Part shown: positions 3,381 to 26,031 of the stretch, piece after piece
Position numbering within the stretch: position 1 is the first letter of the stretch
Layout of the letters: each line of letters starts with the position of its first letter
From: Janthinobacterium sp. UMAB-56
GTDB taxonomy: Bacteria; Pseudomonadota; Gammaproteobacteria; Burkholderiales; Burkholderiaceae_D
Reading direction: 5' to 3'
NCBI RefSeq assembly: GCF_900095265.1
Contig: NZ_LT607662.1
Location: 39,910 to 103,909, forward strand
DNA length: 64,000 nucleotides
Translations under genes and position numbers: made by a program
The notes under the pieces: generated by a model
Told to the model about the DNA's origin: nothing
What the model saw: the letters and a program-made list of their open reading frames with translations, nothing else
Databases searched by the model: none

Positions 3381-3565
3381 CAGGCGTCTGAAAGGGAAAG
3401 TGACAGCCAGTGTAGCCGAAATAACTGCCGCGCCTGACGTCCCGCATGGCGAAATTTATGGGTGGCAAGCATGTCACGAAGCCGTCATGTTTGCTGTGTA
3501 GGCTATTGCAGTTGACGCAAGCATTGTTACTTGGCAATACCCCGTTTCCACGCAGTTCCACCCTC

Positions 3566-3589: not shown

Positions 3590-4327
3590 ATGACAGGCAG
3601 CCAGGCATCCGTCCATGTGCTCGCGCTGGCGGGATACCTGGTTCTGCTGGGCTTCCTGGCGGCCGTGGGACCCGTGCGTGCGCAGTCCGCCGACGGCCCC
3701 ATGCTGCAATTCGATATCGCCGCGCAAAACCTCGGCGATGCGCTGGACCTGTACAGCCGCCGCACGGGCATCGCCGTGCTGATGGACCAGCGCGACGCTT
3801 GGCGCCAGTCGGCCGCCGTGCGCGGTCCCTATGCGGCTGGCGCGGCCCTGCAAGCCTTGCTGGAAGGCACGGGCCTGCAATCGCGCCTGTCCGACGCGCA
3901 AGCCGTCATCGTGTATGCGCCGGCCGGCGCTGCAACTGCCGCAAACTCGCCGCCGGCCGCCGTCGTGGCCGCCGCCGACATACCGGGCGCCACGCAGGGC
4001 GGCGGCGACCATGCGGCGTATGTCAGCCGCTTGCAGCATGCGCTGCTGGGCCTGCTGTGCCGCGCGGCGCAGACGCGCCCGGGTGGCTACCGGCTGGCGC
4101 TGCAGTTGTACCTGAACCGCGCCGGCGTGGTGGAGCGCGTGTACCTGCTCGACAGTACCGGCTTGCGCGCGCGCGACACGGCCATCGCGCGCGTGGTGCT
4201 GGGCATGCGCGTGGGCGCGGCGCCGCTGCCGTCGATGCCGCAACCCGTCTCCATTCTGTTGCTGCCGCAAGGCCCTGGCAGCGAAGTCGATTGCGCCGCT
4301 GGTGCGCCGGCACGGTCCGCGCCATGA
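3590..4327 (+). CDS. Periplasmic STN-domain protein with TonB/TolA-C-like tail (VreA-like signalling component)
   Basis: The 245-residue protein starts with a signal segment (about residues 8-31, ending VRAQS). A secretin/TonB short N-terminal (STN) domain follows at about 38-105, with FDIAAQNLGDALDLYSRRTG as its hallmark. After an Ala/Pro linker, residues ~150-235 resemble a TonB/TolA C-terminal domain (YRLALQLYLNRAGVVERVYL). There is no TonB-dependent beta-barrel. STN domains of FecA-type receptors contact FecR-type anti-sigma factors, and exactly such a pair follows. A stand-alone STN protein with a TonB-C-like end matches VreA of the Pseudomonas PUMA3 system as I remember it. The stop overlaps the sigma-factor ATG (ATGA). 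A role as periplasmic signal transmitter is inferred. Confidence 0.8.
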   Translation: MTGSQASVHVLALAGYLVLLGFLAAVGPVRAQSADGPMLQFDIAAQNLGDALDLYSRRTGIAVLMDQRDAWRQSAAVRGPYAAGAALQALLEGTGLQSRLSDAQAVIVYAPAGAATAANSPPAAVVAAADIPGATQGGGDHAAYVSRLQHALLGLLCRAAQTRPGGYRLALQLYLNRAGVVERVYLLDSTGLRARDTAIARVVLGMRVGAAPLPSMPQPVSILLLPQGPGSEVDCAAGAPARSAP

Positions 4328-4896
4328 GCATGCCCGACCTGCGCACCAAGCTCAAGCGTCACCTCAGTTCGCGCTACGCCGTGCTGCGCTGGCGCCTCGA
4401 ACGCGTGGTCGGCTGCAAGCACCATGCGGCCGATGCGCTGCAGGAAACCTGGCTGCGCCTCGAAGCGATGGTGGCGCCTGGCAGCGCCGCGCCCGTCCAC
4501 AATCCCGATGCCTACCTGCTGCGTATGGCGGCCAATATCGCCACCGATGCCTACCGCCGCGACCGCATCATCGTCACCGAGCGCGAACGCGAAGAACTGA
4601 TGCACATGGCCGACGAGGCCGGCGACGACATCAGCGACCCGGCGCGCATCGTTTCGGCGCGTCTCGACGTGCAGGCGCTCGACGTGGCCTTGGCGGGCCT
4701 GTCGCCGCGCCGCCGCGCCATCCTGACGGCGGCGCGCATCGACGGCATGCTCAATGCGGAGATCGCCGAGCGCTTCGGCATTTCCGTGGCGATGGTCAAG
4801 AAAGAATTGCAAGCGGCCATGCAACACTGTAAAACCTGCATGGCCGACGCCGATGCCGCCCAGCGCAGCGATGTGTCGGGCCGCCGTAAATATTGA
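4324..4896 (+). CDS. ECF sigma factor, FecI/VreI-like
   Basis: The 190-residue protein has sigma region 2 at about residues 10-85 (ADALQETWLRLEAM, then NPDAYLLRMAANIATDAYRR) and region 4 at about 118-168 (LAGLSPRRRAILTAARIDG, then the helix-turn-helix NAEIAERFGISVAMVKKEL). It lacks regions 1 and 3, as ECF sigma factors do. The start at 4324 is fixed by the ATGA overlap with the STN gene. The FecR-type anti-sigma gene begins at its own stop codon (TGATG). It should direct RNA polymerase to the adhesin gene and possibly to its own operon. The target promoter is not proven. Confidence 0.92.
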   Translation: MSMPDLRTKLKRHLSSRYAVLRWRLERVVGCKHHAADALQETWLRLEAMVAPGSAAPVHNPDAYLLRMAANIATDAYRRDRIIVTEREREELMHMADEAGDDISDPARIVSARLDVQALDVALAGLSPRRRAILTAARIDGMLNAEIAERFGISVAMVKKELQAAMQHCKTCMADADAAQRSDVSGRRKY

Positions 4897-5888
4897 TGAA
4901 TCCCATGACTGCTCCTGACCGCGATCCTCGCGTCCCTCCAGACCATGCCGACAGCGACGCTGCCATCGGCCGGCAAGCCTCTGCCTGGTGGGTACGGCTG
5001 CGTGCCGACGATTTTACGCAGGCCGACGCCGACGCCTTGCGCGCCTGGTGCGCGCGCAGCCCCGAACATGCGCGTGCCTGGCGCGAACAGCAACAACTGT
5101 GGCAGGCGCTAGCCCCCGCTTTGGCGCGCACCGCTGCCGCAGCGCCACAGCGGGCGAACGTGCTGGCGTTTCCCCTCAGGCCGGGACGGCGTGCTTTTCT
5201 CGGCGGCGCGCTGGCGGCCGGCGTGGCCGCGCTGGCCCTGCGTCCACCGCTGGGCGCCTGGCCGTCGCTGCAAGAGCTTGGCGCCGACTACCGCACGGGC
5301 ACGGGCGAGCAGCGGCAAGTGGCCCTGTCGCAGCAGATGACGGTGCAGATGAATACGCAGACGCGCGTCAATGTGATAGCGCAGGAAACCATCGAATTGC
5401 TGGGCGGCGAGGCGGAAATCCTTGCCAGTGGCGCGCGCCAGCCCGTCACGGTGGTGGCGGGCGCGGGGCGCTTGCTGGCGCAGTCGGCCCGCTTCAATGT
5501 GCGCCACACGGACGAGGCCGTCTGCGTCACCTGCCTGGCGGGCGCCGTGGACGTGCTCTGGCAACAGCGCCAGCTGACCCTCGATGCGGGGCAGCAATTG
5601 GTGTATGACGGGCGGGGCGTGCAGGCGGCCACGGCCGCGCCGGCCGGCGAAGCGAGCGCCTGGCGCACGGGTGCGCTGTCGTTTGTCGGCAAGCCGCTGT
5701 CCCAGGTGGTCGATGAAATCAACCGCTACCGGCCCGGCCGGGTGCTGCTGCGTAATCCCGAACTGGGGCGCCGCCTGGTGCGCATGCGCTTTTCCATCAG
5801 CCAGATGGATGGCGCGCTGGCGATGATACGTGACTTGACGGGGGCGGAAATGACCAGCTTGCCAGGAGGCATCGTCCTGCTGGGTTGA
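4896..5888 (+). CDS. FecR-family anti-sigma factor / sigma regulator
   Basis: The 330-residue protein has an N-terminal DUF4880-type cytoplasmic domain (ASAWWVRLRADDFTQADADA, about 28-75) that should hold the sigma factor. A single membrane helix follows near residues 110-130, preceded by RRAFLGG, which resembles a twin-arginine motif; Tat-dependent insertion has been reported for FecR. The periplasmic FecR domain (about 140-240) and a C-terminal STN-contact region (about 265-330, SQVVDEINRYRPGRVLL) complete it. I chose the ATG at 4896, one base overlapping the sigma stop, over the TTG at 4893. It should relay a signal from the periplasmic STN protein to the sigma factor. Confidence 0.9.
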   Translation: MNPMTAPDRDPRVPPDHADSDAAIGRQASAWWVRLRADDFTQADADALRAWCARSPEHARAWREQQQLWQALAPALARTAAAAPQRANVLAFPLRPGRRAFLGGALAAGVAALALRPPLGAWPSLQELGADYRTGTGEQRQVALSQQMTVQMNTQTRVNVIAQETIELLGGEAEILASGARQPVTVVAGAGRLLAQSARFNVRHTDEAVCVTCLAGAVDVLWQQRQLTLDAGQQLVYDGRGVQAATAAPAGEASAWRTGALSFVGKPLSQVVDEINRYRPGRVLLRNPELGRRLVRMRFSISQMDGALAMIRDLTGAEMTSLPGGIVLLG

Positions 5889-5937
5889 TTCCATGTTTGC
5901 CAGCGGCAGGGAATTCAAAATATTTTTCAAAAAACAT

Positions 5938-5963
5938 TATCCCTTCCGTCATCGGGCTACGTC
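5938..5963 (+). promoter_or_regulatory. Candidate ECF promoter for the giant exoprotein gene
   Basis: In the 143-bp gap before the exoprotein gene, an A/T-rich stretch (about 5915-5940) is followed by TATCCC at 5938-5943, a 16-bp spacer, and CGTC at 5960-5963. CGTC-type -10 elements with 16-17 bp spacing are common for ECF sigma factors. The ATG is about 70 bp downstream. I could not align it with other promoters, so this remains a candidate. Confidence 0.3.
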
Positions 5964-6031
5964 ATGGAGGCATGGACGCTTGTGCTAACGCCAGGCTCCG
6001 CTCCCTTCTCTCTAGCCAGGAAACCATTGCC

Positions 6032-9000
6032 ATGACCAAGTTTCACACTGCCCAGCGCCCAGTCCCGAACGTCGACATGGGCGTGCAGCGTAGCTCCACG
6101 CTGGGCAGCCGCTTGCGGCTCACGCCGCTCGCTTACGCACTGACCACCATGCTGATGGCGGGCGCCTTCACCACGCCGGCGCGCGCGCAGCAGGCGTTCA
6201 GCGGCGGCTGGTTCGCGGCCAAGGGCGCGGCGCAAAATACGGCGGCCAGCTCGGGCCGCCTGCCGAATGGCCAGCCGCTGCCGCTGGGCAGCCGGCCCGA
6301 GGGTCAACAACAGCAGGCGAACCAGCAATTGAAGCGCTCGCTCAACAACCTGAACCTGGCCGCGCGCGCCATTGCCGCGCAGCAATCGGCCCAGGCGCAG
6401 GCGCGCCAGGCGGCAGCCGGCGGCGCCAGTGTGCCAAATGGGCTGGCGCAGGGCGGCTTGCAGGTCGACACCAATACCTTGACGGCAGGCTGGCTCAACG
6501 CCCAGGCGCCTGTGCAAACGGTGGCGGCGGGCAAGACGGCCGTGGTGGTGCAGCAGACGGCGGACAAGGCTATCCTGAACTGGGAAACGTTTAACGTGGG
6601 CAAGGACACGACCTTGACCTTCCAGCAACAAAAAGACTGGGCCGTGTTGAACCGCGTCAACGATCCGCAAGCGCGTCCCAGCCAGATCCAGGGCCAGATC
6701 AAGGCCGACGGCACGGTGCTGCTCGTCAACCGCAACGGCATTGTTTTCAATGGTACGAGCCAGGTCGATACGCGCAACCTGGTGGCGGCCGCAGCCCGTA
6801 TCGGCGACGAGCAGTTCCAGAAGAACGGCATTTACAGCCCCGGCACGGCCGGCGCCGCGACGTTGACCGATGCGGGCGGCAAGGTGCAGGTGCAGGCGGG
6901 CGCGCGCATTGCCAGCAATATGCCCAAGGGCAGCACGGAGGGTGGCGGTTATGTGATGCTGCTGGGTAAGGAAGTCCACAATGGGGGCGAGATCGGCACG
7001 CCCAAGGGCCAGGCCCTGCTGGCGGCCGGCGACAGCTTTGCCATCAAAAAAGGCGTGGGCACGGATGGCAACCCGCTGTCGACCACGCGCGGCAGCGAAG
7101 TCACGCCGCAGTTCACGGCCGGCAGCACGGCGGGCAAGGTGGTCAACACTGGCCTGATCCAGGCGCGCGAAGGCGACATCACACTGGCCGGGCGCGAGGT
7201 GCGCCAGGATGGCGTGCTGCTCGCTACCACCACGACGGCCACGCGCGGCACCATCCACGTCAATGCCCTGGGTAGCGACGCGGCCGTCACCCTGGGACGG
7301 GGCGCCACCACGGCCATCCTGGTCGAGGACGATGGCAAGACGACGGCGCTCGACAGCCAGCGCGACGCCATGCGCGGTCCGGCCGTGACGACCACGGAAA
7401 ACATCGTCGCCGTGAATGACCGCCGCGACCAGTCGCGTATCGAGATCGGCAGCGCCGGCACGGTGGAATTGCTCGGCGATTCCCTGACCCTGGCCACGGG
7501 CGGCCAGATCGCCGTCAACGCCGCCAGCCGCAGCCTGCTGCGCGATGGCGCCCAGCTCGACGTTTCCGGCGCCGTGGGCGTGAAGGTGGCCATGGAGGCG
7601 AACAATGTCGAGATCAATGTGCAGGGCAACGAGCAGCGCGACGCGCCCGTCAACCGCGATGGCAAGGCCTTGATCAACAACAATATCTGGGTCGACCGCC
7701 GCAAGCTGGTGTTCGTCCCGAAGGGCACGAACGGCTACGACAGCGACCGCTGGTATACGGCCGGCGGCTTGCTGGAAGTGGCCGGCTACCTGGGCACGCA
7801 GGGCCATTCCGTCAGTGAATGGATGGCGCAGGGCGGCACGGTGAGCTTCGGCGGCAAGGATGTCGTCACGCAGCTTGGCTCCAGCATCAACCTGTCCGGC
7901 GGCACGCTGGACGTGCAGACGGGCGCGCTGCGCCAGACCTGGCTGAAAGGCGCCGATGGCAAGTTGTATGAAGCGGGCAGCGCGCCGGCCGACTTGCCGT
8001 ATGCGGGCGTATACAAGGGTTACGAGGAAGAACATGCGCGCTGGGGCAAGGACGCCAGCGCGTTTTATGCCAATCCCCTGATCGCGGCGCAACAGCGCCT
8101 GGAAAACGGCTACACGGTGGGCCGCGACGCGGGCAAGCTGGTGATCGCCACCGGGTCGGCCGTGCTGGAAGGCGGCATCGCGGGCGAGGTCTTCCAGGGC
8201 GAGCGCCAGGCGCAGGCGCCGCAAGCCCTGCTCGACGGCTACCAGCAGTCGCAGTTTGCCGCCGCGCAGCGGGGGCAACTGATCGTCGGCCAGTATCAGC
8301 CCATGTATGACAAGCGCACGGGCGTGCTGCAGCATGTGCTGTCGGCCGTCATGGACGAAGTGCGCCTGACGCGTGTGCAGGACGGTATCGCCGCCGGCCT
8401 CGAGGTGGCTGACGTGCTGGCTGCAGAGCGCCAGGGCAGGCTGCTGCTCGACACCAATCTGTTAAACAATCAGCAACTGGGCGCCATCCGCATCGCCGCG
8501 AAAGGCGCGATCACGGTCGACAGCGCGCTGCAGGTGGCCGACGGTGGCAATCTCACCTTGTTCGGCAAGGACGTGACCATCAATAGCAGCCTGCGCAGCC
8601 GTGGCGGCAGCATCATGGCCGGCAACGTGCTGCAGCAGATCGGCGCGCTGGGCATGCTCGACACCTTCGTCGATCCGGGCGCGCCCGCAGGCAAGCTGCT
8701 GCTGGCCGATGGCGTCAGCCTGGACACCAGCGGCTTGCTGGCCAATGTGCTGCGCGACCCGCTGGCCGCCGCCGGCCTGCCATATTTGAACGGTGGCAAT
8801 GTATCGTTGCGCGCGGTTGGCGACGTGCGTATCGGCAATGGCAGCCTGATCGACGTGTCATCGGGCGCGGCCATCCTGGCGCAGGCGAAACAGCAGGGTG
8901 GCAAGGGCGGCAACGTGACCGTGGCCAGCTATGGGCCTAAGGCCGACCTGGTGCTGGGCGAGGGCGCGCAAGTGCGCGGCCATGGCGTTGCCGGCGGCGG

Positions 9001-12000
9001 CAAGCTGGAGCTGCAGGCAAACAATATATTGGTCGGCCCAGCCGATACCGCACAGAAAGGTACCTTGCAGCTGGGAGCTGACTTTTTTGAACAGGGTTTT
9101 TCCAGCTACAGCCTGCTCGGCAAGCAGGCCTTGACGGTAGCGGACGGCACGCAGGTAGACGTGCGCATGCCCGTGCTGCGCGTGGTGGACAACGAGAGCC
9201 TGGCTCTGTGGACGCCGGATCACTACACGGAAAATGCATTGAAGGGCACCTTGACGCAGCGCAAGGGCGCCAGCCTGGCCCTGCAGGCAGGCGATGTCCA
9301 GTCCGATGCGGCCGACATGGCCAGCGCCGAACTGCTGGTGGGCAAGGGGGCCGTGCTGAGTGTCGATGCGGGCCAGGCCATCAAGCTGTCCAGCGTGGGC
9401 CAGTTGACGGTGGAAGGGCGCTTGAATGCCTGGGGCGGCAAGATCAGCCTGGGCGGCGTGGACGTCGCCCCGAATGTGTCTGACGCCGTGGAAGCAGCCG
9501 GCCATGGCCGTTCCCTGTGGATCGGCGAGAACGCCGTGCTGGACGTCGCCTCGCGCGCCGTCACGGCCACGGATGCGCAGGGCCGGCGTTATGGCAAGGT
9601 CATCGATGGCGGCAGCATCGTCATCGGCGGCGAGATCGACCATGCGCAGGGCAGTACCTCGGCGGCCAAGCTGTTTGTCGTCGTGCGCGACGGCGCCGTG
9701 CTCGACGCTTCCGGCGCGCACGCCGTGCTGGACGTGAACGGCGACGCCATCGACGTGGCCAGCGCGGGCGGCAGCATCGCTCTGGCGTCGAATAATGGCT
9801 TGTACCTCGATGGCCAGCTGCTGGCCAAAGCGGGCGGTGCGGGGGCGGCGGGCGGCACCCTGTCCGTGGCCACGGGCACGCCCGAATACCTGAAAGTGCT
9901 GGCCACGCCCCAGGTGCTGCAGGGACGCCAGATGATACTCACGCAGCGCCAGCTTGCCAGCGACCTGGCCGACAATGTGCGCGCGCAGGATGCGGCGGAA
10001 ACACTGCAGTATGGCCATGGCCGCCTGTCGGTGGAGCAGGTGGACGCAGGCGGCTTCGGCAACCTGGCCCTATTGGGGGCCGTCACCTTTGGCGGCGACG
10101 TGTCGCTGAAAATGCAGCAGAGCTTCCAGCTGTATGGCGCGCCGGCGCTGGCGCCCGGCAGTTCTCCCGACGCGCGTGTCAGCGTGGCCGCACCCTATGT
10201 GCGCCTGGCCAGCGTCAAGCCGGTCGGACGCGATTTCTATGTCACGCCAGGCACGGCGGGGCAAACACCAGTCGCCAGGCAGATCAGCTTTGAAGGCGAC
10301 CTGATCGATGTACGCGGCCTGGTCAATATCGTCGCCGACGACGTGCGCCTGTTCAGCCGCGGCGACCTGCGTTTCCTGTTATCCCCGCTGGGCTGGGATG
10401 GCAATCAAGCGACGACGGTGTTGTCCACGCCGGGCGACATGACCCTCACTGCGGCCCAGCTGTATCCGGAAACGGGCGCCGGCGCCGCCGTGCGCGCCGG
10501 CTATGCCAAGCTCAATGGCTTCATGGGCTACGACCCCGCGCGCAGCCTGAACATTGCTCGCACGACCGATGGCGTGCCGGCCATGCCGTATTCCGCCTTC
10601 GGCTCGCTGGAGCTGGGCGCTGCGCATATCGAGCAGGGTGGCGTGGTGCGCGCGCCGCTGGGCCGCCTGTCGATCGGCGCGGCCGGCTATAACAATGACA
10701 AGAGCCTGACGGTCAATCTGTTGCCTGGTAGCGTCACCTCCGTCAGCGGTGCCGGCCTGGTCATGCCGTATGGCGGCACCGTCGATGGCCAGGCCTGGAA
10801 CGTGGATGGCAAGTTGACCTCCCTTATGGGCGTGGGCGGCTTCAGTGCGCAGGGCGGCCTGCGCGTCGGCGTGGAAATGGCCGGCATGGCCGTCGACGTG
10901 CGGCCGGGCGCGCTGCTCGACCTGTCCGGCGGCGGCGAACTGACGGGCGCCGGTTTCATCGCCGGCCGCGGCGGTTCCACCGACGCGCGTACCCATCCGC
11001 TGGTGCAGGTGGGCGCGAACGGCGGTTTCGTGTTGCCGGGACTGACGACCAACCCTGTGTACGCCATCGTGCCGGGCGTGCAAACGCCGCAGGCGCCTGT
11101 GGGTGGCGAAAAGGGTGCTGCCGATGCGGCCGTGGGCCGGCAGGTGACGATAGGCAGCGGCGTGCCGGGCTTGCCCGCCGGCACCTATACGCTGATGCCC
11201 TCGACCTATGCCTTGCTGCCGGGCGCCTTCCGCGTCGAACTGAACGGCCTGGCGGGCCAGGGCAGTGCAGGCACCCTGGCGCAGCAGCTGCGCAACGGCT
11301 CCTGGGCCGCGCCCGGTACCCTGTCGATTGCCGGCACGGACATCCGCGCGCCGCTGGCCAGCCAGCTGATACTCACGCCGGCCAAGGTCTTGCGCACGTA
11401 TTCCCAGTACAACGAAACGGGCTATGCCGCCTTCGCCCTGGCCGATGCGCAGACGCGCGGCATTCCCCGCGCGATGCTGCCGTCCGATGCCAAGACGCTC
11501 AAGCTGACCCTGGCACAAGATGGCGGCCTGGACACATTCCAGTTCAAGGGCACCGGCAAGTTCGCCGCAGCCGAAGGCGGCTATGGCGGCACAGTGATGC
11601 TGGGATCGAGCAATGTCTCCAATGGCGAGATTGAAATTCTCGCCGATGGCGCGCCGGCCACCAGCGGCGCCGGGCTGGTCAGCGTGCGCGCCTCGAGCCT
11701 GAACAATATTGGTGCGGCCCGCATTGTGGTGGGCAACACACCGACGGTGGCATACGGGCAGGGCGGCAATTACGTGAACTTCAGTGTCAACTCGGCGCGT
11801 GCCATCTACCTGCGCGCGGGAGCCGTCCTGTCGGCACCCGAGGTATTCCTGGTGGCCCAGGACCCGGGCAATTACGAATTGGGCGATGGCGTGATCGATA
11901 TCGCGCCTGGCGCGGGCATCAGCACTCTGGGACGGGGCAAGGCCGCGTATGACGCCAACGACGGCTTCATCTACAAGACCCGCGCGGACATGCACGTGCT

Positions 12001-15000
12001 GGCCGCCTCGAACGGCTTGCTCAATGTGGCGCCGGTCGGTGGTTCGGCGCGTGGCGGCATCCGCATCGGCGTGTGCGACGACGCGTGCGCCGGCACCAGT
12101 ACGGCGAGCCTGTACTCGGAAGGCACCCTGCTGCTGTCGACCAATGGCAGTTTCCAGCTGGACGACTCGGCCCGCTACGGTACGCGCAACCTGAGCCTGT
12201 CCGTGGGTGCCATCAACATGGGCAGCAGCGAAGCGCTGGCGGCGGCGCAGGCCAGCGGCACGCGGTCCAGCGGCCTGGCCCTGAACCAGGGCGTGCTGGA
12301 TCGCCTGCTGCGCGGCGATACCAGCACGGGCGCACCGGCGCTGCAAGCGCTGATGCTGAGTGCGGCAGACGGCGTCAATTTCTATGGCGACGTGGTGCTC
12401 GATACCTACGACAAGACCACGGGCAAATCCACGCTGGAGCGCCTGGTGCTGACCACGCCGGCCATGTATGGCCAGGGCGATGCCGGCACGGTGGCCACCA
12501 TCCGCACGGCTAACCTGGTCTGGGGCGGCGCGCTGTCGCCAGCCGGCAATATCATTGCGCATGGCGCCGGCACGGGTAGCGGCACCCTGAACCTGGAAGC
12601 GGAACGCATCGATTTCGGTTTCGGCCCGTTCACGCAACCGGCCGGCGTCGCCTCGTTCGACCGCCTGGCGCTGGGTTTTGCCAACGTCAACCTGAAGGCG
12701 TCGGGCCAGGTCACGGCCAATCACAAGGGCAGCCTGTCCGTCTATCAGGCGCAGGGCGCCTACGAAACGGGCAAGGGTTACCAGTACGGCGGCGGCAACT
12801 TGAACATCATCACGCCGCTGTTGACGGGCGACGCCGGTTCCGCGCACAGCTATACGGCGGGCGGCGCGCTGACGGTGGTGGCGCCGGCCGGCGCGGCGCC
12901 AGCGGCTGCCGTCAAGAACAACGATGGACTGGGCGCCCAGCTGGCCTTGAACGGCGACAGCGTGAGCGTGGCCACGGCGGTGGTGTTGCCTAGCGGTAAG
13001 CTGACTATCAGCGCGCAGCACGACATCAGTCTGGCCGACGCTGCGCGCATCGACATGGCGGGCCGCAAGAGCACCTTCTTCGACGTGGATAAATACAGCT
13101 GGGGCGGCGACGTCACCCTGGATAGCCGCGCCGGCGATATCCGCGCAGCTAGCGGCGCCGTGATCGACCTGTCGGCCGAGAACAACCGCGCCGGCAGCCT
13201 GAAGGCCGTGGCGCTCGATGGCGCGGCCGGCATGGTGGACTTGCAGGGCAAGATCCTGGGCGGCGCCAGCGGCAATTACGATGCGGGCGGCACCGTGGTG
13301 CCGTACAAGAAAGGCAGCGTGGACGTGCGCGCGCAAACGCTGGGCACCGGCGGCACGCTGGACAGCCAGTTCGCCGCGCTGAACACGCGTCTGAACGAAG
13401 GCGGCGTGACGGGCGGGCGCAGCTTCCAGCTGAAGCAGGGCGATCTGACGATAGGCAATGAACTCAAGGCCGGTGAAGTGCAGGTATCCGTCGACAACGG
13501 CCGCCTGGCCGTGGCCGGCACCATCGATGCCAGCGGCGAGCGCGTGGGCAGCATCCGCCTGGCCGGCAAGCAGGGCCTGACCCTGGCCGATAACGCCGTG
13601 CTCGACGCGCACGGCACGCTCTTGCGCGTCGATAGCTATGGCAAGATCATCGACAGCCCGAACCGCGCCATCGTAGAACTGAATTCGGGCGAGGGCTTGC
13701 TAACTCTGGCCGGCGGCGCGCAGATCGACGTGCGCCACGGCACAGCGGCTGTGGCCAGCAAGGGCAAGGGAGAATACGACGGCGCCGCGCGCGGCACGGT
13801 TGAATTGAACGCGCCGCGCCTGGGCAGCGGCGGCGCCCGCACGGACGTTGACGCTGCCACCTTTGGCGATATCGCCATTGCGGCAGGCGGCGGTTTGACG
13901 ATACGCGGCGCGAAATCCATCGCCGTCAACGCCATGCAGCGCTATGACGACGCGGCCTACGCCACGGACCTGTCGGCCAGCGGCCGCCCGTACCAGGTGA
14001 TCAACCAGGCGTACCTGGACAGCAAGCATGCGGACAGCACGGCCTTCATCGATGCGGCGCTGGCCAACACGAACTTGCGCAACGGCAAACTGGCGGGCTT
14101 GACGACGGCCGCGTATGCCGATGCGCTGCACTTGCGCCCTGGCGTCGATATCGTCAGCCAGACGCCGGACGGCGACCTGGTGGTACAGGGCGACCTGGAT
14201 CTCTCAAACATGCGCTATGCCAGCCTGAACCCGCGCTTCCAGCAGACGGGCGTGCGCGGTTCGGGCGAGGTGGGCAGCCTGCTGCTGCGCGCCGGCGGCG
14301 ACTTGAGCATCTACGGCAGCATCAACGACGGCTTCGCGCCGCCGCCCGCCACCAAGGACGACAAAGGCTGGGTATTGCTGCCGGGCCGCGACATCAATGG
14401 CAGTGACGTCATCGTGCCGGGCCAGGGCGTGACCGTGGCCGACGGCACCCTGTTCCCGGGCGGCGCCGTGCTCAATTACGATTTGCCCCTCAAGGGCTTC
14501 AATCTGCTCGCCAATACGCGCCTGCCCGTGGCCGTGGCACTGGACCAGGCCGTGACCTTGCCGGCCGGCACGGTGCTGGCTGCGGCCGTGCGCGACAGCG
14601 CCGGCAATATCATCCATGCGGCCGGCAGCCTGCTGGCCACGGCGCACACCCTGGACGCCGGCATGCGCCTTGACGCAGGCAGCGTGCTCAAGCAAACGGT
14701 GAAAGTGAGCGCCATGACCTGGCCCAAGGGCGTGCCACTGCCTGGCGTGGCGGGCGAACGCTCGGTCTTCGCGCTCAACGGCAACCTGGCGCTGGCCGTG
14801 GGCTCATTGATCCCGTCCGGCACCGATGTCAAGCTGATGGCCGGCGTGGAGTCGATCGAGCTGCGTCCGGAAGTGGCGGGCAGCCAAGGCAAGCTGTGGG
14901 CCATCGCGCCCATGCTGGCCGAAGGCTCGCAAGCGTGGGGCATGCGCCTGGTGGCCGGCGCCGACCTCGATGCAGCCGACACGCGCAGCGTGCAGGCGCA

Positions 15001-18000
15001 TCCCGAGCATGGCACCCTGCGCCTGGCCGACAGCCATTACGGCATGTACGGCGTGCTGGTGCCGCCGAAGGGCGTGCAGTACTGGACGCAGGAGGCTGCG
15101 GATCTGGGCATCGACGGCATCGTGGCCGGTGAAATTATCACCGACGAATTCCTCAGCCAGTTCGGTACCAATATCGTGGATCTCTGCGCCGGCGACCCGA
15201 CCATGTGCGTGCTGAAGGTAGCCTACGTGTGGACCAAGACCGGCGAGGAAGAGTTCGCGGACCCGAGCGTCAAGGCGGGTGACATGCTCGACCCTGTGGC
15301 GCTGGGCTGGCCTACCATGTGCGAGGAGTATCCCACCTGGTGCGGCACGTCCAGCCCCAGCTACAACTACAAGGCGTCCAGCTTGCGCTACAGCGTGCTG
15401 CGCACGGGCACGGGCGACCTGGACCTGGTCAGCGGCGGCGACTTGCGCATGGACAGCCTGTATGGCGTGTACACGGCCGGCATGTCGTCCACGGCGACGT
15501 TGCCAGGCGACCCGTTCAACCAGGCGCGGGCGCGCAATGCCGACGGCAAGGTATTGAACAATCCGGACGGCGAGCATGAACACCTGGTCGATGGCGGCGC
15601 CGATAGCATTTACCGCGCCTGGTACCCCGACCAGGGTGGCAATCTGCTGCTGAAGGTAGCGGGCGACCTGACGGGTTCTTTGTTGGGCCGCAGTGCCGCA
15701 ACCAATTTGCGTCCCGTTACCGCTGACGCGGGCTACGACAGTACGGCCGTGGGCCACTGGCTGTGGCGCCAGGGCAGCGGTGGTCTCGCCATCGGCGGCC
15801 TGTCACAGCCGGTGGCATGGTGGGTCAATTTCGGCACCTATGTGGGTCGCAGCACCCTGGCCGACGACATCCTGGGCTTTACGGGTTTTGGCACTCTGGG
15901 TGGCGGCAATTTGCGCGCCGACGTGGCGGGTGACGCCGGCGCGCTGGCGCTCGCGCAGGGCAGCAGCTATGACGGCAATATCAATACCCGTTCGCAGGGC
16001 TTGCTGCTGGCCGTGGGCAGTACGGGCCGCGTGACTGCCGATGGCAGCATGCTGTTGACGGGCGGCGGTGATCTGGACCTGCGCGTGGGCGGCGCCATCA
16101 ACCCGGCAGGCACGTCGAATGCTGACCACATGAATGGCGCCCTGGTCGACTTGCGCGGCCACGCGGAAACGTCGGCCGCGCAGCTGGGCAGCCTGAAGCT
16201 GCAATATGGCACACAAAGTACCGATCACGCGCCGAAAGAAACACGCGCCTACGATGCCTTCACTGCCACGCGCGCCACGCCGCAGGGTGGCATGACGCTG
16301 GTGCCGGGCGACGCCACGTTCAGCGTGGCGACCCTGGGCGACCAGGTGCTGCAGGATGTGGCCGATCCCGGTCGCGTACTGATGGTCAACCCGACATCGG
16401 CGCTTGCGCCATCGGGCGAACTGGGCATTGGCAACAGCTGGTTCAGCCTGTGGACGCCGCGCACGGCGCTCGATCTGTTCTCCGCCGGCGGCAATCTGAC
16501 GCCATTGACGGCGTCGATCGGCACGGAAACCGACTTTGCCACCATCTACCCATCCATCGTGCGCGTTGCCGCCGCGCATGGCAGCCTGTACTACGGCAAG
16601 GCGATCGTGAACAGCAATGCTGCCAACAGCTATGCGGCACCCTTGCTGCTGGCGCCTTCGCCCAATGCACAACTGCAGTGGCTGGCCGGTGACTCCATCT
16701 ATGCTGGCGGTTTTACCATCGGCCAGTCCGGCGCGGCGGCGGGCAGCATGGCGACGCCGTTCAAGCCCGCCTATCTCGCCCTGACCCCGAATTCGTGGTC
16801 GACCGGTCCCCTGGCCAGCAATCTGTCCAGCACGGGGGTGCCGGCGAGGGCAGATATATATCAGCTGTTCGCCTTCGGTCCAGATTCGGCCGTCGGCCCT
16901 GGCAACAGCGGCACGCAGGCGGCCCGCATCTATGCCGTCCAGGGCGATTTGCTCGGCGTCAACGTCGGTCGCATCGTCGAGTTCTACGACGCCAAGCATG
17001 CAGGCATCACCTGGTATGAGGGTGCGCAACCGGTCTGGATGAAGGCCGGCCGCGACATCGTCAGCAGCGGCACGGCGTTGCTGGAGGGGGTGGGCGGCAG
17101 CGAGAGCGACTTGTTATTCAACAACAGCAGCAATCTGTTTGTGCATAACAATGCGTATGACGTGTCGGTAGTCTCGGCCGGGCGCGATATCCTGACCAGC
17201 TCCTTCAACGTGGCCGGTCCCGGCACGCTCGACATCAGCGCCGGGCGCAATATCCTGATGCAGGACAAGGGCAGCGTCGTCAGCCTCGGTCCCATTGTGC
17301 AGGGCGACAAGCGTCCGGGCGCCGGCATCGCCATGCAGGCGGGCGTGGGCGCGGCCGGCCTCGACTACCTGCGCTTCGTCAAACCCTATCTTGACCCGGC
17401 GAACGTGGCGCAGACGGGCGTGCCGCTGGCTGACCAGGCTGGAAAGGTGGTGAAATCGTACGAGACCGAATTGGCGACCTGGCTAGTCGAGCGCTACGGC
17501 TTCAAGGGCACGCCCACCGAAGCGCTGGCCTTTTACCTGGCGTTGCCCGAGCCGCAGCAGCGCGTGTTTGCCCGCAAGGTGTATTTCGCCGAACTGAAGG
17601 CGGGCGGACGCGAGTACAACGACCGGGACAGCGCCCGCTACGGCAGCTTTTTGCGCAGCCGCAACGCCATCGCCGGCCTGGCACCGGCCACCGGCGCCAG
17701 CGGCAAGACGATTTCCTATGCGGGCGACATCGTCATGTACCGCGGCACGTTTGGTCTCTACAACCCGGACTCGGGAAGAAACGACCGCATCGTTCCCCGC
17801 AGCGGCTACGTGCACACCAACTTCGGCGGCGACATCGCGCTGCTGACGCCGGGCGGCAAGCAGGTGTTCGGCATCGAAGGCGAGGCGCCGCCGTCGACCT
17901 CCGGTGTCATCACCAAGGGTGGCGGGAATATCGACCTGTTCTCGCACGGCAGCATCTTGCTGGGCCAGAGCCGCGTCATGACGACGTTTGGCGGCGATAT

Positions 18001-18640
18001 CCTGGGCTGGTCGTCGCAAGGCGACATCAACGCGGGCCGTGGTTCGAAGTCGACCATCGTCTACACGCCGCCCAAGCGCGTGTATGACAACTGGGGTAAC
18101 GTGACTCTGTCGTCCGACGTGCCCAGTACGGGTGCCGGCATCGCCACCCTGGCGCCGATTGCCGAAGTGCCGGCCGGCGACGTGGACTTGCTGGCGCCGC
18201 TGGGCACCATCGACGCGGGCGAGGCGGGCATCCGCGTCTCGGGCAACGTCAACCTGGCCGCGCTGACAGTGATGAACGCGGCGAATATCCAGGTCAAGGG
18301 CGAGTCCAAGGGCATGCCGACGCTGGCAGCCGTCAATGTAGCCGCCATGACGAACGCCAGCGCGGCCGCTTCCCAGGCCACGGCGGCGGCGCAGGACGTG
18401 GTGCAGCGCGAGCGCGCCGCCACCCGCTCGGCGCAACCCTCCGTGTTTACGGTGCGCGTGCTGGGCTTTGGCGGCGACGCGCCGCCCGACAGCGTGCAAG
18501 CTGTCCCGCAGGATGGCGCGCGCATCGAGGCGGCCGATTACAACCCGCGCAGCGCCGTGCGCGTGCTGGGCCTGGGCCCGCTGCCGGAATCGGCTACGCG
18601 CCAGTTGACGGCGCAAGAGCGCAGCAGGTTGTCGCCATGA
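6032..18640 (+). CDS. Giant filamentous-haemagglutinin-family TPS exoprotein with DUF3739
   Basis: The 4,202-residue protein has an extended signal sequence ending near residue 52 (TTPARAQ). A TPS secretion domain lies at about residues 145-340, with ILNWETFNVGKD and the NRNGIVFNG variant of the NPNGI motif, then thousands of residues of degenerate Gly/Asn/Asp beta-helix repeats. A DUF3739 segment covers about 3895-4095 (GGGNIDLFSHGSILLGQSR, GEAGIRVSGNVNLAAL). The ATG at 6032 has an AGGAA site at a suitable distance; upstream in-frame codons precede the signal sequence. I could find only six cysteines: CX3C at 2015/2019 and two CX6C pairs at 3052/3059 and 3097/3104. RGD occurs at about 1443 and 2094. 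TpsA proteins need a TpsB (Omp85-type) exporter, and none is in the window. The protein is probably a surface adhesin controlled by the upstream sigma cassette. Confidence 0.93.
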   Translation: MTKFHTAQRPVPNVDMGVQRSSTLGSRLRLTPLAYALTTMLMAGAFTTPARAQQAFSGGWFAAKGAAQNTAASSGRLPNGQPLPLGSRPEGQQQQANQQLKRSLNNLNLAARAIAAQQSAQAQARQAAAGGASVPNGLAQGGLQVDTNTLTAGWLNAQAPVQTVAAGKTAVVVQQTADKAILNWETFNVGKDTTLTFQQQKDWAVLNRVNDPQARPSQIQGQIKADGTVLLVNRNGIVFNGTSQVDTRNLVAAAARIGDEQFQKNGIYSPGTAGAATLTDAGGKVQVQAGARIASNMPKGSTEGGGYVMLLGKEVHNGGEIGTPKGQALLAAGDSFAIKKGVGTDGNPLSTTRGSEVTPQFTAGSTAGKVVNTGLIQAREGDITLAGREVRQDGVLLATTTTATRGTIHVNALGSDAAVTLGRGATTAILVEDDGKTTALDSQRDAMRGPAVTTTENIVAVNDRRDQSRIEIGSAGTVELLGDSLTLATGGQIAVNAASRSLLRDGAQLDVSGAVGVKVAMEANNVEINVQGNEQRDAPVNRDGKALINNNIWVDRRKLVFVPKGTNGYDSDRWYTAGGLLEVAGYLGTQGHSVSEWMAQGGTVSFGGKDVVTQLGSSINLSGGTLDVQTGALRQTWLKGADGKLYEAGSAPADLPYAGVYKGYEEEHARWGKDASAFYANPLIAAQQRLENGYTVGRDAGKLVIATGSAVLEGGIAGEVFQGERQAQAPQALLDGYQQSQFAAAQRGQLIVGQYQPMYDKRTGVLQHVLSAVMDEVRLTRVQDGIAAGLEVADVLAAERQGRLLLDTNLLNNQQLGAIRIAAKGAITVDSALQVADGGNLTLFGKDVTINSSLRSRGGSIMAGNVLQQIGALGMLDTFVDPGAPAGKLLLADGVSLDTSGLLANVLRDPLAAAGLPYLNGGNVSLRAVGDVRIGNGSLIDVSSGAAILAQAKQQGGKGGNVTVASYGPKADLVLGEGAQVRGHGVAGGGKLELQANNILVGPADTAQKGTLQLGADFFEQGFSSYSLLGKQALTVADGTQVDVRMPVLRVVDNESLALWTPDHYTENALKGTLTQRKGASLALQAGDVQSDAADMASAELLVGKGAVLSVDAGQAIKLSSVGQLTVEGRLNAWGGKISLGGVDVAPNVSDAVEAAGHGRSLWIGENAVLDVASRAVTATDAQGRRYGKVIDGGSIVIGGEIDHAQGSTSAAKLFVVVRDGAVLDASGAHAVLDVNGDAIDVASAGGSIALASNNGLYLDGQLLAKAGGAGAAGGTLSVATGTPEYLKVLATPQVLQGRQMILTQRQLASDLADNVRAQDAAETLQYGHGRLSVEQVDAGGFGNLALLGAVTFGGDVSLKMQQSFQLYGAPALAPGSSPDARVSVAAPYVRLASVKPVGRDFYVTPGTAGQTPVARQISFEGDLIDVRGLVNIVADDVRLFSRGDLRFLLSPLGWDGNQATTVLSTPGDMTLTAAQLYPETGAGAAVRAGYAKLNGFMGYDPARSLNIARTTDGVPAMPYSAFGSLELGAAHIEQGGVVRAPLGRLSIGAAGYNNDKSLTVNLLPGSVTSVSGAGLVMPYGGTVDGQAWNVDGKLTSLMGVGGFSAQGGLRVGVEMAGMAVDVRPGALLDLSGGGELTGAGFIAGRGGSTDARTHPLVQVGANGGFVLPGLTTNPVYAIVPGVQTPQAPVGGEKGAADAAVGRQVTIGSGVPGLPAGTYTLMPSTYALLPGAFRVELNGLAGQGSAGTLAQQLRNGSWAAPGTLSIAGTDIRAPLASQLILTPAKVLRTYSQYNETGYAAFALADAQTRGIPRAMLPSDAKTLKLTLAQDGGLDTFQFKGTGKFAAAEGGYGGTVMLGSSNVSNGEIEILADGAPATSGAGLVSVRASSLNNIGAARIVVGNTPTVAYGQGGNYVNFSVNSARAIYLRAGAVLSAPEVFLVAQDPGNYELGDGVIDIAPGAGISTLGRGKAAYDANDGFIYKTRADMHVLAASNGLLNVAPVGGSARGGIRIGVCDDACAGTSTASLYSEGTLLLSTNGSFQLDDSARYGTRNLSLSVGAINMGSSEALAAAQASGTRSSGLALNQGVLDRLLRGDTSTGAPALQALMLSAADGVNFYGDVVLDTYDKTTGKSTLERLVLTTPAMYGQGDAGTVATIRTANLVWGGALSPAGNIIAHGAGTGSGTLNLEAERIDFGFGPFTQPAGVASFDRLALGFANVNLKASGQVTANHKGSLSVYQAQGAYETGKGYQYGGGNLNIITPLLTGDAGSAHSYTAGGALTVVAPAGAAPAAAVKNNDGLGAQLALNGDSVSVATAVVLPSGKLTISAQHDISLADAARIDMAGRKSTFFDVDKYSWGGDVTLDSRAGDIRAASGAVIDLSAENNRAGSLKAVALDGAAGMVDLQGKILGGASGNYDAGGTVVPYKKGSVDVRAQTLGTGGTLDSQFAALNTRLNEGGVTGGRSFQLKQGDLTIGNELKAGEVQVSVDNGRLAVAGTIDASGERVGSIRLAGKQGLTLADNAVLDAHGTLLRVDSYGKIIDSPNRAIVELNSGEGLLTLAGGAQIDVRHGTAAVASKGKGEYDGAARGTVELNAPRLGSGGARTDVDAATFGDIAIAAGGGLTIRGAKSIAVNAMQRYDDAAYATDLSASGRPYQVINQAYLDSKHADSTAFIDAALANTNLRNGKLAGLTTAAYADALHLRPGVDIVSQTPDGDLVVQGDLDLSNMRYASLNPRFQQTGVRGSGEVGSLLLRAGGDLSIYGSINDGFAPPPATKDDKGWVLLPGRDINGSDVIVPGQGVTVADGTLFPGGAVLNYDLPLKGFNLLANTRLPVAVALDQAVTLPAGTVLAAAVRDSAGNIIHAAGSLLATAHTLDAGMRLDAGSVLKQTVKVSAMTWPKGVPLPGVAGERSVFALNGNLALAVGSLIPSGTDVKLMAGVESIELRPEVAGSQGKLWAIAPMLAEGSQAWGMRLVAGADLDAADTRSVQAHPEHGTLRLADSHYGMYGVLVPPKGVQYWTQEAADLGIDGIVAGEIITDEFLSQFGTNIVDLCAGDPTMCVLKVAYVWTKTGEEEFADPSVKAGDMLDPVALGWPTMCEEYPTWCGTSSPSYNYKASSLRYSVLRTGTGDLDLVSGGDLRMDSLYGVYTAGMSSTATLPGDPFNQARARNADGKVLNNPDGEHEHLVDGGADSIYRAWYPDQGGNLLLKVAGDLTGSLLGRSAATNLRPVTADAGYDSTAVGHWLWRQGSGGLAIGGLSQPVAWWVNFGTYVGRSTLADDILGFTGFGTLGGGNLRADVAGDAGALALAQGSSYDGNINTRSQGLLLAVGSTGRVTADGSMLLTGGGDLDLRVGGAINPAGTSNADHMNGALVDLRGHAETSAAQLGSLKLQYGTQSTDHAPKETRAYDAFTATRATPQGGMTLVPGDATFSVATLGDQVLQDVADPGRVLMVNPTSALAPSGELGIGNSWFSLWTPRTALDLFSAGGNLTPLTASIGTETDFATIYPSIVRVAAAHGSLYYGKAIVNSNAANSYAAPLLLAPSPNAQLQWLAGDSIYAGGFTIGQSGAAAGSMATPFKPAYLALTPNSWSTGPLASNLSSTGVPARADIYQLFAFGPDSAVGPGNSGTQAARIYAVQGDLLGVNVGRIVEFYDAKHAGITWYEGAQPVWMKAGRDIVSSGTALLEGVGGSESDLLFNNSSNLFVHNNAYDVSVVSAGRDILTSSFNVAGPGTLDISAGRNILMQDKGSVVSLGPIVQGDKRPGAGIAMQAGVGAAGLDYLRFVKPYLDPANVAQTGVPLADQAGKVVKSYETELATWLVERYGFKGTPTEALAFYLALPEPQQRVFARKVYFAELKAGGREYNDRDSARYGSFLRSRNAIAGLAPATGASGKTISYAGDIVMYRGTFGLYNPDSGRNDRIVPRSGYVHTNFGGDIALLTPGGKQVFGIEGEAPPSTSGVITKGGGNIDLFSHGSILLGQSRVMTTFGGDILGWSSQGDINAGRGSKSTIVYTPPKRVYDNWGNVTLSSDVPSTGAGIATLAPIAEVPAGDVDLLAPLGTIDAGEAGIRVSGNVNLAALTVMNAANIQVKGESKGMPTLAAVNVAAMTNASAAASQATAAAQDVVQRERAATRSAQPSVFTVRVLGFGGDAPPDSVQAVPQDGARIEAADYNPRSAVRVLGLGPLPESATRQLTAQERSRLSP

Positions 18641-19347
18641 TGGCCCGCCTGGCCGTAGCCTTGCCCTTGCGCGCAATGGGGCATGCAGGCATGGCCTGCT
18701 ACCGGCCGGCCATCCGGCCCCGTCTGCGGGCGGCCAACGACATGGCGCCAGCGTCGTTGCCGGGGCAGGGCAGGCAGATGCAGGCTGTGCTGGAAAGCAA
18801 TTACCGGGGCTTGCACCGGCGTCTGACGCGCCACCTGGGTTGCGCCGAGCTGGCCAGCGACAGCCTGCACGACGCCTGGCTGCGCCTGGGCACGCTGGCG
18901 GCGGGTGATGGGGCGCCGCTGGCGCACAGCCCCGTCGCCTATGTGTTTCGCGTGGCCTGCAATGCAGCCATGGACAGCCTGCGCCGCAACCGCGCCTGGC
19001 TGTATGCGGACGAGGGCGATGGCGAGGCTGGCCTGGTCGACTTCCTTGCCGATACGGCGGCGGGGCCGGAACGCCTGGCCGAGCTGCAGGCCGATTTGCA
19101 GCGTCTGGCGCAGGCCGTCGAGCTGCTGCCGCGGCGCCACCGGCAAGTGCTCGAAGCGCTGCGCGTGGACGAGCTCTCCCGCCAGGAAGTGGCCGAGCGG
19201 CACGACATGTCGCTGCGCAACGTCGATACGGCCCTGCGCCAGGCGCTCGATCACTGCGCCCGCCACACGGGCTATGCGGCGCAGGGGGGCGTCGGCACGA
19301 CCCGCCGCAGCCTGAGGCTGAACGTTCGTTCGCGTACGGACGCGTAA
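18637..19347 (+). CDS. Second ECF-type sigma factor, coupled to the exoprotein gene
   Basis: The protein is up to 236 residues. Region 2 lies at about 50-115 (LESNYRGLHRRLTRHLG, ASDSLHDAWLRLG, SPVAYVFRVACNAAMDSLRR) and region 4 at about 150-205 (AVELLPRRHRQVLEALRVD, then SRQEVAERHDMSLRNVDTAL). The ATG at 18637 overlaps the exoprotein stop (ATGA), and a second ATG follows directly. The first ~45 residues do not look like sigma sequence, so translation may truly start at an internal Met near 18742 or 18778. No anti-sigma gene accompanies it; the next gene is paoA. It could amplify the upstream sigma circuit or answer exoprotein translation. FecI-like membership is clear; its role is inferred. 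Confidence 0.85.
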   Translation: MMARLAVALPLRAMGHAGMACYRPAIRPRLRAANDMAPASLPGQGRQMQAVLESNYRGLHRRLTRHLGCAELASDSLHDAWLRLGTLAAGDGAPLAHSPVAYVFRVACNAAMDSLRRNRAWLYADEGDGEAGLVDFLADTAAGPERLAELQADLQRLAQAVELLPRRHRQVLEALRVDELSRQEVAERHDMSLRNVDTALRQALDHCARHTGYAAQGGVGTTRRSLRLNVRSRTDA

Positions 19348-19423
19348 CACTCTTGCCGCCAGACTGGCACTTCGGGCCTGCATGCGCCCACCCAACCAGT
19401 CCACAGCCAGGAGGAAGCGCGAG

Positions 19424-20080
19424 ATGACAGAGTGTAATCACATCAATGCCGGCCGGCGCGGCTTGCTGATCGCCGGCGCGCTGTCGGCCACGGCCGGGGC
19501 CGTGCCCGGCGTGGCCGGGGCAGCTGAAGCGGCCCATGCTGCGGCCCGGGCCAGCCAGGCGCCGCCCGTCCTGATGAAGGTCAATCTGGATATCAACGGC
19601 CAGCGCCGCAGCCTTGAACTCGACACGCGCACCACCTTGCTCGACGCCTTGCGCGAACACCTGCATCTGACGGGCACCAAGAAGGGCTGCGACCACGGCC
19701 AGTGCGGCGCCTGCACCGTCTTGCTGGAAGGCCAGCGCATCAACGCCTGCCTGACCCTGGCCGTGATGCACGAGGGGGCCCGCATCACCACCATCGAGGG
19801 ACTGGGCACGCCCGACAAGCTGCACCCGATGCAATCGGCCTTCATCGCGCATGACGGTTATCAATGTGGCTACTGTACCCCGGGGCAAATCTGCTCTGCC
19901 GTCGCCGCGCTGGCAGAAATCCGCCAGGGCATCCCCAGCCACGTCAGCGCGGACTTGAACGCTACTCCGCAGGCGACGCCGGAAGAGTTGCGCGAACGCA
20001 TGAGCGGCAATCTCTGCCGCTGCGGCGCCTATTCCAACATCATCGAGGCGATTTCCGAGGTGGCCGGGAGGGTGGCATGA
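19424..20080 (+). CDS. paoA: Aldehyde oxidoreductase [2Fe-2S] subunit PaoA
   Basis: The 218-residue small subunit of a xanthine-dehydrogenase-family molybdoenzyme has a twin-arginine signal ([16 protein letters not shown]), placing the complex in the periplasm. The plant-ferredoxin-like [2Fe-2S] site is [14 protein letters not shown] plus a later Cys. The helical domain holds the second cluster with CGYCTPGQ and [10 protein letters not shown]. The start at 19424 is chosen because AGGAGGA lies 8 bp upstream; an in-frame ATG at 19382 lacks this and would place extra residues before the signal. Its stop overlaps the start of paoB as ATGA. It transfers electrons from the molybdenum site of PaoC. 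Confidence 0.92.
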
Positions 20081-21036
20081 AAGTGTTCAGCTACCAGAAG
20101 GCCGCCTCGCCGGCCGAGGCGGCGGCCGCAGCCTTGCGCACGCCCGGCGCCAGGTTCATCGCCGGCGGCACGAATTTGCTCGATCTGATGAAACTGGAAA
20201 TCGAAACCCCCGCGCATTTGATCGACGTCAATGGCCTGGCGCTGGATCAGGTGGAAGCAACCAAGGACGGCGGCTTGCGCATCGGCGCCCTGGTGCGCAA
20301 TACGGCGCTGGCGGCCCACGCCACCGTGCGCCGCGATTACGGCGTATTGTCGCGTGCCTTGCTGGCGGGCGCTTCCGCGCAATTGCGCAATAAGGCGACG
20401 ACGGCGGGCAACCTGCTGCAGCGCACGCGCTGTCCGTATTTTTATGACACGAACCAGGCTTGCAACAAGCGCGTGCCGGGCAGCGGCTGCTCCGCCATCG
20501 CGGGTTTCAGCCGGCCGCTGGCGATTTTGGGTGGCAGCGATACCTGCATCGCCACGCATCCGAGCGACATGGCCGTGGCCCTGCGCGTGCTCGACGCGGG
20601 CATCGATACCGTGCGGGCCGACGGCGCCGTGCGTACCATCCCGATTGCCGACTTTTACTGCTTGCCGGGCAACACGCCGCAGCGCGAAACGGTGCTGCAG
20701 CCGGGCGAACTGATCACCAGCGTGACCTTGCCCCCGCCCGTCGGCGGTACGCACGTTTATCGCAAGGTGCGCGACCGCGCTTCGTACGCGTTCGCGCTGG
20801 TGTCCGTGGCGGCGATTATCTTGCCCGATGGCACGGGCAGGCTGGCGCTGGGCGGCGTCGCGCCGCAGCCGTGGCGGGTTGCCGGCGCGGAGCAGGCGCT
20901 GCCCGCTGGCACCGCCGCCGTGAACGAACGCCTGCTGGCCGGCGCCAAGCCGACTGCCGACAATGCCTACAAGGTCATCCTGGCGCAGCGGACCGTGGCA
21001 TCCGTGTTGAGGCAAACTCCAGCAATGAAAGGCTAA
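20077..21036 (+). CDS. paoB: Aldehyde oxidoreductase FAD subunit PaoB
   Basis: The 319-residue FAD-binding middle subunit has the family loop [13 protein letters not shown] near residue 28 and [14 protein letters not shown] near 107. Four cysteines at about 119, 129, 138 and 157 fit the extra [4Fe-4S] cluster described for E. coli PaoB and 4-hydroxybenzoyl-CoA reductase beta subunits. The start at 20077 overlaps the paoA stop (ATGA). paoC begins 4 bp after its stop. Having no signal peptide of its own, it probably rides through the Tat system with PaoA, as in the E. coli complex. Confidence 0.92.
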
Positions 21037-21040
21037 GTCC

Positions 21041-23239: not shown

Positions 23240-23361
23240 CTCCCTCGCGCCACCATGCGCGTGACAAAGCGTGTATTTTTGGTAATTTTCAAGTGCTATG
23301 CTCGGAACGCATGCTGCGGGGCAAGTTCCCGGTCCGCAAGGTCATGCCGCCAGGAGAATGC

Positions 23362-24986
<1,625 letters not shown>

Positions 24987-24999
<13 letters not shown>

Positions 25000-26021: not shown

Positions 26022-26031
26022 GAAAGCCACC

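Follow-up and report, generated by a model that had tools for sequence, protein, structure and literature searches.

A PUMA3-type surface-signaling locus of Janthinobacterium that ends in a second sigma factor behind a giant TPS exoprotein

What does a second sigma factor do at the end of a surface-signaling cassette, directly behind the gene of a giant TPS exoprotein? The question is raised by a locus in the window, i.e., the whole 64,000-nucleotide stretch of DNA that was analyzed, which is located on contig C12 of a Janthinobacterium genome (6.1 Mb in 82 contigs). The locus comprises the following features, with all coordinates referring to the window.

3471..3492, + strand: pho-box-like direct repeat 5′ of the STN gene, agreeing with the consensus at 12 of 14 positions
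3499-3506, + strand: -10-like TAGGCTAT after the pho-box-like repeat, label assigned by eye
3590..4327, + strand: VreA-like periplasmic protein, 245 aa, with an STN lobe (residues ~39-110) and a TolA/TonB-CTD lobe (residues ~139-225)
4324..4896, + strand: sigma1, ECF sigma factor 1, VreI-like, 190 aa (Pfam, NCBIfam, tree)
4896..5888, + strand: FecR-type anti-sigma factor with DUF4880 N-tail, 330 aa (Pfam)
5889-6031: FecR-exoprotein gap, 143 bp
5917..5980, + strand: conserved, ECF-like exoprotein promoter block (alignment of 22 type-A gaps; placed by own-genome pattern)
5935-5941 and 5960-5963, + strand: CATTATC and CGTC, putative elements of this block
6032..18640, + strand: TPS/DUF3739 exoprotein, an orphan TpsA, 4,202 aa (12.6-kb gene)
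18637..19347, + strand: sigma2, ECF sigma factor 2, 236 aa, its start overlapping the exoprotein stop

On re-check, the layout proposed in the first-pass annotation held throughout, with five genes on one strand, their coordinates, overlapping junctions, and the 143-bp gap. Specifically, ATGA overlaps join the STN gene to sigma1 and the exoprotein gene to sigma2, sigma1 and FecR overlap by TGATG, and the start codon of sigma2 is immediately followed by a second ATG. The cassette had been described as fused to the exoprotein, which is apt for linked genes and not for one single protein, and the exoprotein as an adhesin, a label whose sole basis is resemblance to its family. Sigma70 regions 2 and 4 scored above the Pfam cutoffs in both sigma1 and sigma2, as did TIGR02937 in sigma2; the third protein passed the cutoffs for FecR and DUF4880, and the fourth those for the TPS domain (PF05860; 90.4 bits versus a cutoff of 33.5) and DUF3739. 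A Sigma70-type promoter scan gave consensus matches only and was left unused. That the genes form one operon, and how this operon is regulated, we infer from the sequence.

The first protein scored below the Pfam cutoffs for STN (17.4 bits; cutoff, 28.4) and TonB_2 (12.1 bits; cutoff, 22); there are, however, relatives in which both domains are present, and its named relatives are nearly all from Janthinobacterium. An AlphaFold model computed with 26 sequences had a mean pLDDT of 76.9 and a pTM of 0.43, with two well-predicted lobes. Foldseek searches with the lobes returned the signaling domain of FpvA (E value of 8.6e-6) as well as those of PupA and FecA, and, more weakly, domain III of TolA for the second lobe (E value of 8.6e-3). 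Because of the predicted fold and the relatives carrying both domains, the protein was assigned to the STN/TolA-CTD type, its own scores being below the cutoffs. This bilobal STN plus TolA/TonB-CTD architecture is the one that the available text of PMC2729926 reports for VreA. A FecIRA system with a TonB-dependent β-barrel sensor was ruled out, as the first protein has only 245 residues and no barrel.

DUF3739 exceeded its cutoff in 26 of 40 Janthinobacterium genomes. Sixty loci were annotated together with the window locus and a paralogous locus on contig C15 of the same genome, two subthreshold matches being left out. They comprise 22 loci of type A (the window type), 11 of type A′ (order kept, diverged), 26 of type B (the C15 type), and 3 of type C, DUF3739 cassettes in which neither sigma2 nor tpsB was seen; seven loci were typed by hand (L082 and L083 as A, L050 and L080 as B, and L098-L100 as C). 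Each of the 23 genomes that contain A or A′ also contains B, which occurs alone in three of the 40 genomes (hypergeometric 3e-8, shared ancestry ignored), and in complete genomes A and B are far apart (at 3.08 and 0.16 Mb in G123). The exoprotein stop and the sigma2 start overlap as CATGATG in all 21 type-A junctions seen, and an overlap is found in 4 of 11 A′ loci. Median dN/dS values over 20 type-A loci were 0.12 for sigma1, 0.19 for STN, 0.22 for FecR, and 0.26 for sigma2, and sigma2 is intact despite an interrupted exoprotein frame in L052, L068, and L075. The first-pass annotation had tied its proposal to conservation of the five-gene order, and this order is kept in relatives within the genus and beyond. 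Tandem or nearby cassettes on one contig were observed for L063/L077, L052/L075, L084/L046, L059/L076, and L139. Downstream of the locus (19382-23239), a gene for a paoA-like iron-sulfur subunit (NCBIfam PaoA above cutoff) is accompanied by genes for FAD and molybdopterin subunits; it starts 34 bp after sigma2 on the same strand, recurs in all but one of the 21 type-A loci in which sigma2 was seen, and is missing in A′ loci, and its run may possibly be cotranscribed with sigma2. At 23293-28548, kinase and receiver parts occur in two proteins (recognized by eye in the first and by Pfam in the second) on either side of an NMT1/phosphonate-type binding protein, possibly a separate sensory cluster.

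In a tree of 88 sigma sequences, sigma2 (32 rows) and sigma1 (56 rows) were separated with 100/100 support, and the sigma factor of the C15 locus fell in another clade than sigma2. A recent copy of sigma1 is ruled out by these separate clades. Searching 84,980 named species genomes with sigma2 patterns alone yielded 60 loci, and 57 of them, some from near-identical strains, have the C-terminal end of a DUF3739-type exoprotein as their immediate upstream neighbor in the same orientation, at a spacing of -3 to 217 bp (median, 22 bp; 14 overlaps). The other three begin at a contig edge (L112), are sigma1 by context (L157), or consist of a 33-residue match (L160). The 57 loci belong to Variovorax (21), Janthinobacterium (17), Bordetella (6), Cupriavidus (5), Achromobacter (3), Herbaspirillum (2), Xylophilus (one MAG), Steroidobacter (1), and one Burkholderiales MAG, i.e., to eight named genera in all. 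No gene 3′ of sigma2 is common to the loci, and a conserved anti-sigma gene of its own was not found there. Region 4 of sigma2 is near-constant over cassettes and genera, and this speaks for a genuine DNA-binding sigma factor with a common target; neither own-genome promoter patterns nor the comparison of promoters between loci identified such a target. Other family genera also contain cassettes without sigma2 in direct succession, each with its own STN-sigma-FecR (L251, L255).

The explanation that we favor, with about even confidence, is a PUMA3 (VreAIR)-type surface-signaling operon dedicated to one giant TPS exoprotein, with sigma2 as a relay to a second regulon. Under phosphate shortage, PhoB would transcribe STN-sigma1-FecR via the conserved pho-box. 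By analogy to PUMA3, FecR would hold sigma1 until the periplasmic STN/TolA-CTD protein relays a signal, and freed sigma1 would read the CGTC-type promoter for which the conserved block upstream of the exoprotein gene is the candidate. The TpsB of the paralogous locus would export the exoprotein, as suggested by co-occurrence and by the match of the TPS domains. Sigma2, made last after the 12.6-kb gene, would switch on a second gene set and thus form a feed-forward relay. The basis for a working sigma2 is its gene, its position, and purifying selection.

Six Variovorax cassettes of the window type (L230-L234, L241) bear on an alternative in which sigma2 has a FecR N-tail as its partner, be it that of the cassette FecR or a free-standing one, and would either be held or protected in an FpvR-like manner or titrate FecR and thereby free sigma1. 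In these cassettes, an ORF of ~120 aa between promoter and exoprotein resembles the first 75 residues of FecR (judged directly from the sequence letters in L230); all four of the six that were scanned passed the DUF4880 cutoff, and all six exoproteins precede sigma2 (L141, L142, L143, L145, L148, and L159, matched by contig name and position). This ORF and the missing anti-sigma gene behind sigma2 speak for a pairing, whereas the FecR-exoprotein gap of the window showed no ORF of this kind and retains just a short stretch in the exoprotein's frame. We consider the pairing unlikely, though the two ideas, pairing and relay, are compatible with each other.

The favored relay begins with the pho-box, which had gone unmentioned in the first-pass annotation and was found here before the STN gene. 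It was scored as two 7-mers (maximum of 14) against a consensus that agrees with the available text of PMC4971064, and shuffle fractions were obtained for six loci each of types A and B. Upstream of STN, the score is 12 of 14 in 20/20 A and 22/22 B loci, 11 to 12 in 10/10 A′ loci, and 11 in 3/3 C loci. Beyond the genus, a score of at least 11 is reached at 17 of 23 places 5′ of STN, compared to 5.1% of shuffles, a count in which three of the six lower-scoring places, adjoining a DUF2341 gene and probably being tonB, were retained. No pho-box was found at the type-A exoprotein promoter, where the gap scores 8 to 9 of 14 in 22/22 loci, i.e., at chance level (window, 9). The corresponding gap of type B scores 11 in 23/23 loci, one of them at a different place (C15, 11), and the tpsB gap of type B scores 10 in 23/24 loci, again at chance level (C15, likewise 10).

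In the alignment of 22 type-A loci, the FecR-exoprotein gap contains a conserved block ending in CTACGTCATGG. CGTCATG is found at the matching place in the six Variovorax cassettes and in L098 of J. fluminis, a locus with a related promoter block in which no sigma2 was seen; the exoprotein promoter was therefore assigned to sigma1. In the own genome, the pattern CATTATC-N16-20-ACGTCA matched the exoprotein promoter and one place on C22. Alternatively, sigma2 might itself read the exoprotein promoter of sigma1 and act as an amplifier by positive feedback. Sigma1 is among the closest relatives of sigma2 in the own genome (35%), and the two -10-like elements of the system belong to the CGTC type; however, exoprotein promoters vary between cassettes whereas region 4 of sigma2 hardly does, and L098 has its related promoter without sigma2. 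Such an amplifier appears rather improbable.

The exoprotein and tpsB promoters of C15 have CAGTC-N14-CTGTC in common, and in the own genome the pattern TGAC-N6-CAGTC-N12-16-GTCWA matched these two promoters only, a result that indicates rarity, not function, as the pattern was derived from its own two matches. Of the 23 sequences analyzed upstream of tpsB in other genera, 13 contain an exact CAGTC-N13-16-GTC, the wrong frame having been chosen for two of these 23 loci (L163, L170). The notion that sigma2 drives tpsB is unsupported in its exclusive form: four genomes (G140, G225, G258, and G292) have related tpsB promoters, and neither sigma2 nor a C15-type sigma factor was seen in their fetched loci (best sigma2 scores, ≤111 bits), so that sigma2 is seemingly not needed. 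By eye, the -35 letters of the tpsB promoters do not sort by the presence of sigma2.

As to export, the genome encodes two DUF3739 exoproteins, four TPS-domain proteins, three POTRA_2 transporters, and six DUF4880 FecR proteins. No POTRA_2 match was found on C12, and among the four TpsAs only that of the window has no adjoining transporter. The first-pass annotation was silent on the absent tpsB, which the locus lacks and the paralogue on the other contig possesses. The C15 locus has the order STN, sigma, FecR, exoprotein (4,558 aa), TpsB, DUF2341/ExbB, ExbD, TonB-like, and porin-like, the last names being given by eye; tpsB thus takes the place that sigma2 has in the window locus, where tpsA is linked, and the tpsB/exbBD module is present in the C15 locus only. 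The TPS domain of the window exoprotein is 60% identical to that of C15 and 30 to 32% identical to the other two, and by sequence the best-fitting TpsB would be that of C15. Reportedly, a single transporter, BcpB of Burkholderia, serves several TpsAs, a precedent judged by title.

Outside Janthinobacterium, 23 of 24 genomes with sigma2 have one TpsB above 600 bits, the exception being the Xylophilus MAG. Among 294 family genomes, a C15-type TpsB was found in 28 and a sigma2 above 150 bits in 20, all of which are within the 28 (hypergeometric 6e-25, shared ancestry ignored); for sigma2, at most nine candidates per genome were scored, and the 150-bit line was drawn after the scores were known (153.5, next 111.4). 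Two genomes of Bordetella ansorpii (G325, G326) contain 13 and 11 places matching the exoprotein N terminus and one TpsB above 600 bits each, plus weaker transporters. In 5 of 20 tpsB loci (L197, L203, L207, L210, and L211), the ~15 kb upstream revealed no gene of a cassette, nor was a cassette visible in the shorter upstream sequence of three further tpsB loci; in three of these genomes (G311, G315, and G317), the contig with tpsB also carries a cassette that begins about 12 to 32 kb downstream, which counts against the term "unlinked." In G237 (L085, L052, L075), the tpsB reading frame is broken in two and the orphan exoprotein genes, two in number, are likewise interrupted, possibly by sequencing error; in L068 (G146), the exoprotein is interrupted and tpsB is intact.

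One could also imagine a completion signal, in which sigma2, translated off the 3′ end of the 12.6-kb message, would be made only once that message is complete and would then raise tpsB-exbB-exbD-tonB in trans, and a FecR N-tail at the front end, as in Variovorax, would restrain sigma2 until the message has been read. If true, export capacity would be matched to the giant exoproteins being made; we consider this doubtful. That sigma2 is a passenger without any regulatory effect today would agree with the lack of an identified target, the type C cassettes without sigma2, and the weak constraint on its first 47 residues (dN/dS of 0.55), but its core has a dN/dS of 0.20 and the gene is kept in place in 57 of 60 loci from eight named genera, and we regard a passenger as very unlikely. 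Least credible is export by the C2 or C4 transporter instead of the C15 TpsB: both are present in the genome, but each adjoins its own TpsA, to whose TPS domain that of the window is far less similar than to the one of C15.

Sigma2 thus represents a conserved fifth component added to PUMA3-type signaling in eight named genera, and if the favored relay is true, the signaling system would come with its own readout of completed giant-protein expression. The data further suggest one-to-many export, with a single TpsB orthologue and up to 13 exoprotein loci in Bordetella ansorpii; they extend the pho-box layout known from PUMA3 to many β-proteobacteria, and they offer a nonmodel setting for asking what VreA-type receptors sense.

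Genes 1 to 4 constitute a PUMA3 (VreAIR)-type system, which is already in print for Janthinobacterium. According to the available text of Llamas et al. 2009 (PMC2729926), PUMA3 homologues exist in Janthinobacterium sp. and Rhodopseudomonas palustris, and Janthinobacterium sp. has four clusters, of which three precede tpsA and the remaining one precedes tpsB plus exbBD; these correspond to the four-gene part of the present locus, and the second sigma factor is unmentioned in that text. As far as PMC2729926 and PMC4971064 could be consulted, the window locus shares with VreA-VreI-VreR of Pseudomonas aeruginosa (PA0690/PA0692, PdtA/PdtB) the barrel-less STN plus TolA/TonB-CTD protein, the ECF sigma factor, the FecR-type regulator, the 4-bp vreA-vreI overlap, the pho-box before the first gene, and a TpsA nearby. 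Unlike P. aeruginosa PUMA3, for which these portions mention no linked second sigma factor, the window locus ends with one and lacks tpsB/exbBD, and in contrast to pdtA no pho-box was found at its exoprotein promoter. The same sources establish control of a TPS exoprotein by PUMA3 under PhoB; VreI upregulates tpsA/tpsB in P. aeruginosa, and its overexpression increases the ECF gene PA0149 7.4-fold (PMC2729926, in the part available). The comparison supports the claim of the first-pass annotation that the system is VreAIR-like and closed by a second sigma factor. Its proposal that the exoprotein is the regulated product is very probably correct, albeit no departure from VreAIR, since VreI acts on tpsA/tpsB as well. 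In the open-licence PMC literature, no description of a second sigma factor in a PUMA3-type cluster was found; new are the sigma2 clade behind DUF3739 exoproteins, the pho-box before STN, the orphan TpsA with the TpsB of a paralogue, and the Variovorax N-tail. The C15 locus is alike in STN-sigma-FecR-exoprotein, which is there followed by TpsB, DUF2341/ExbB, ExbD, and TonB-like and not by sigma2. Two ECF sigma factors in one signaling pathway are known from FpvI and PvdS of P. aeruginosa, both held by FpvR; this is a siderophore system, unlike the window locus, with which it has the two ECF sigma factors in common.
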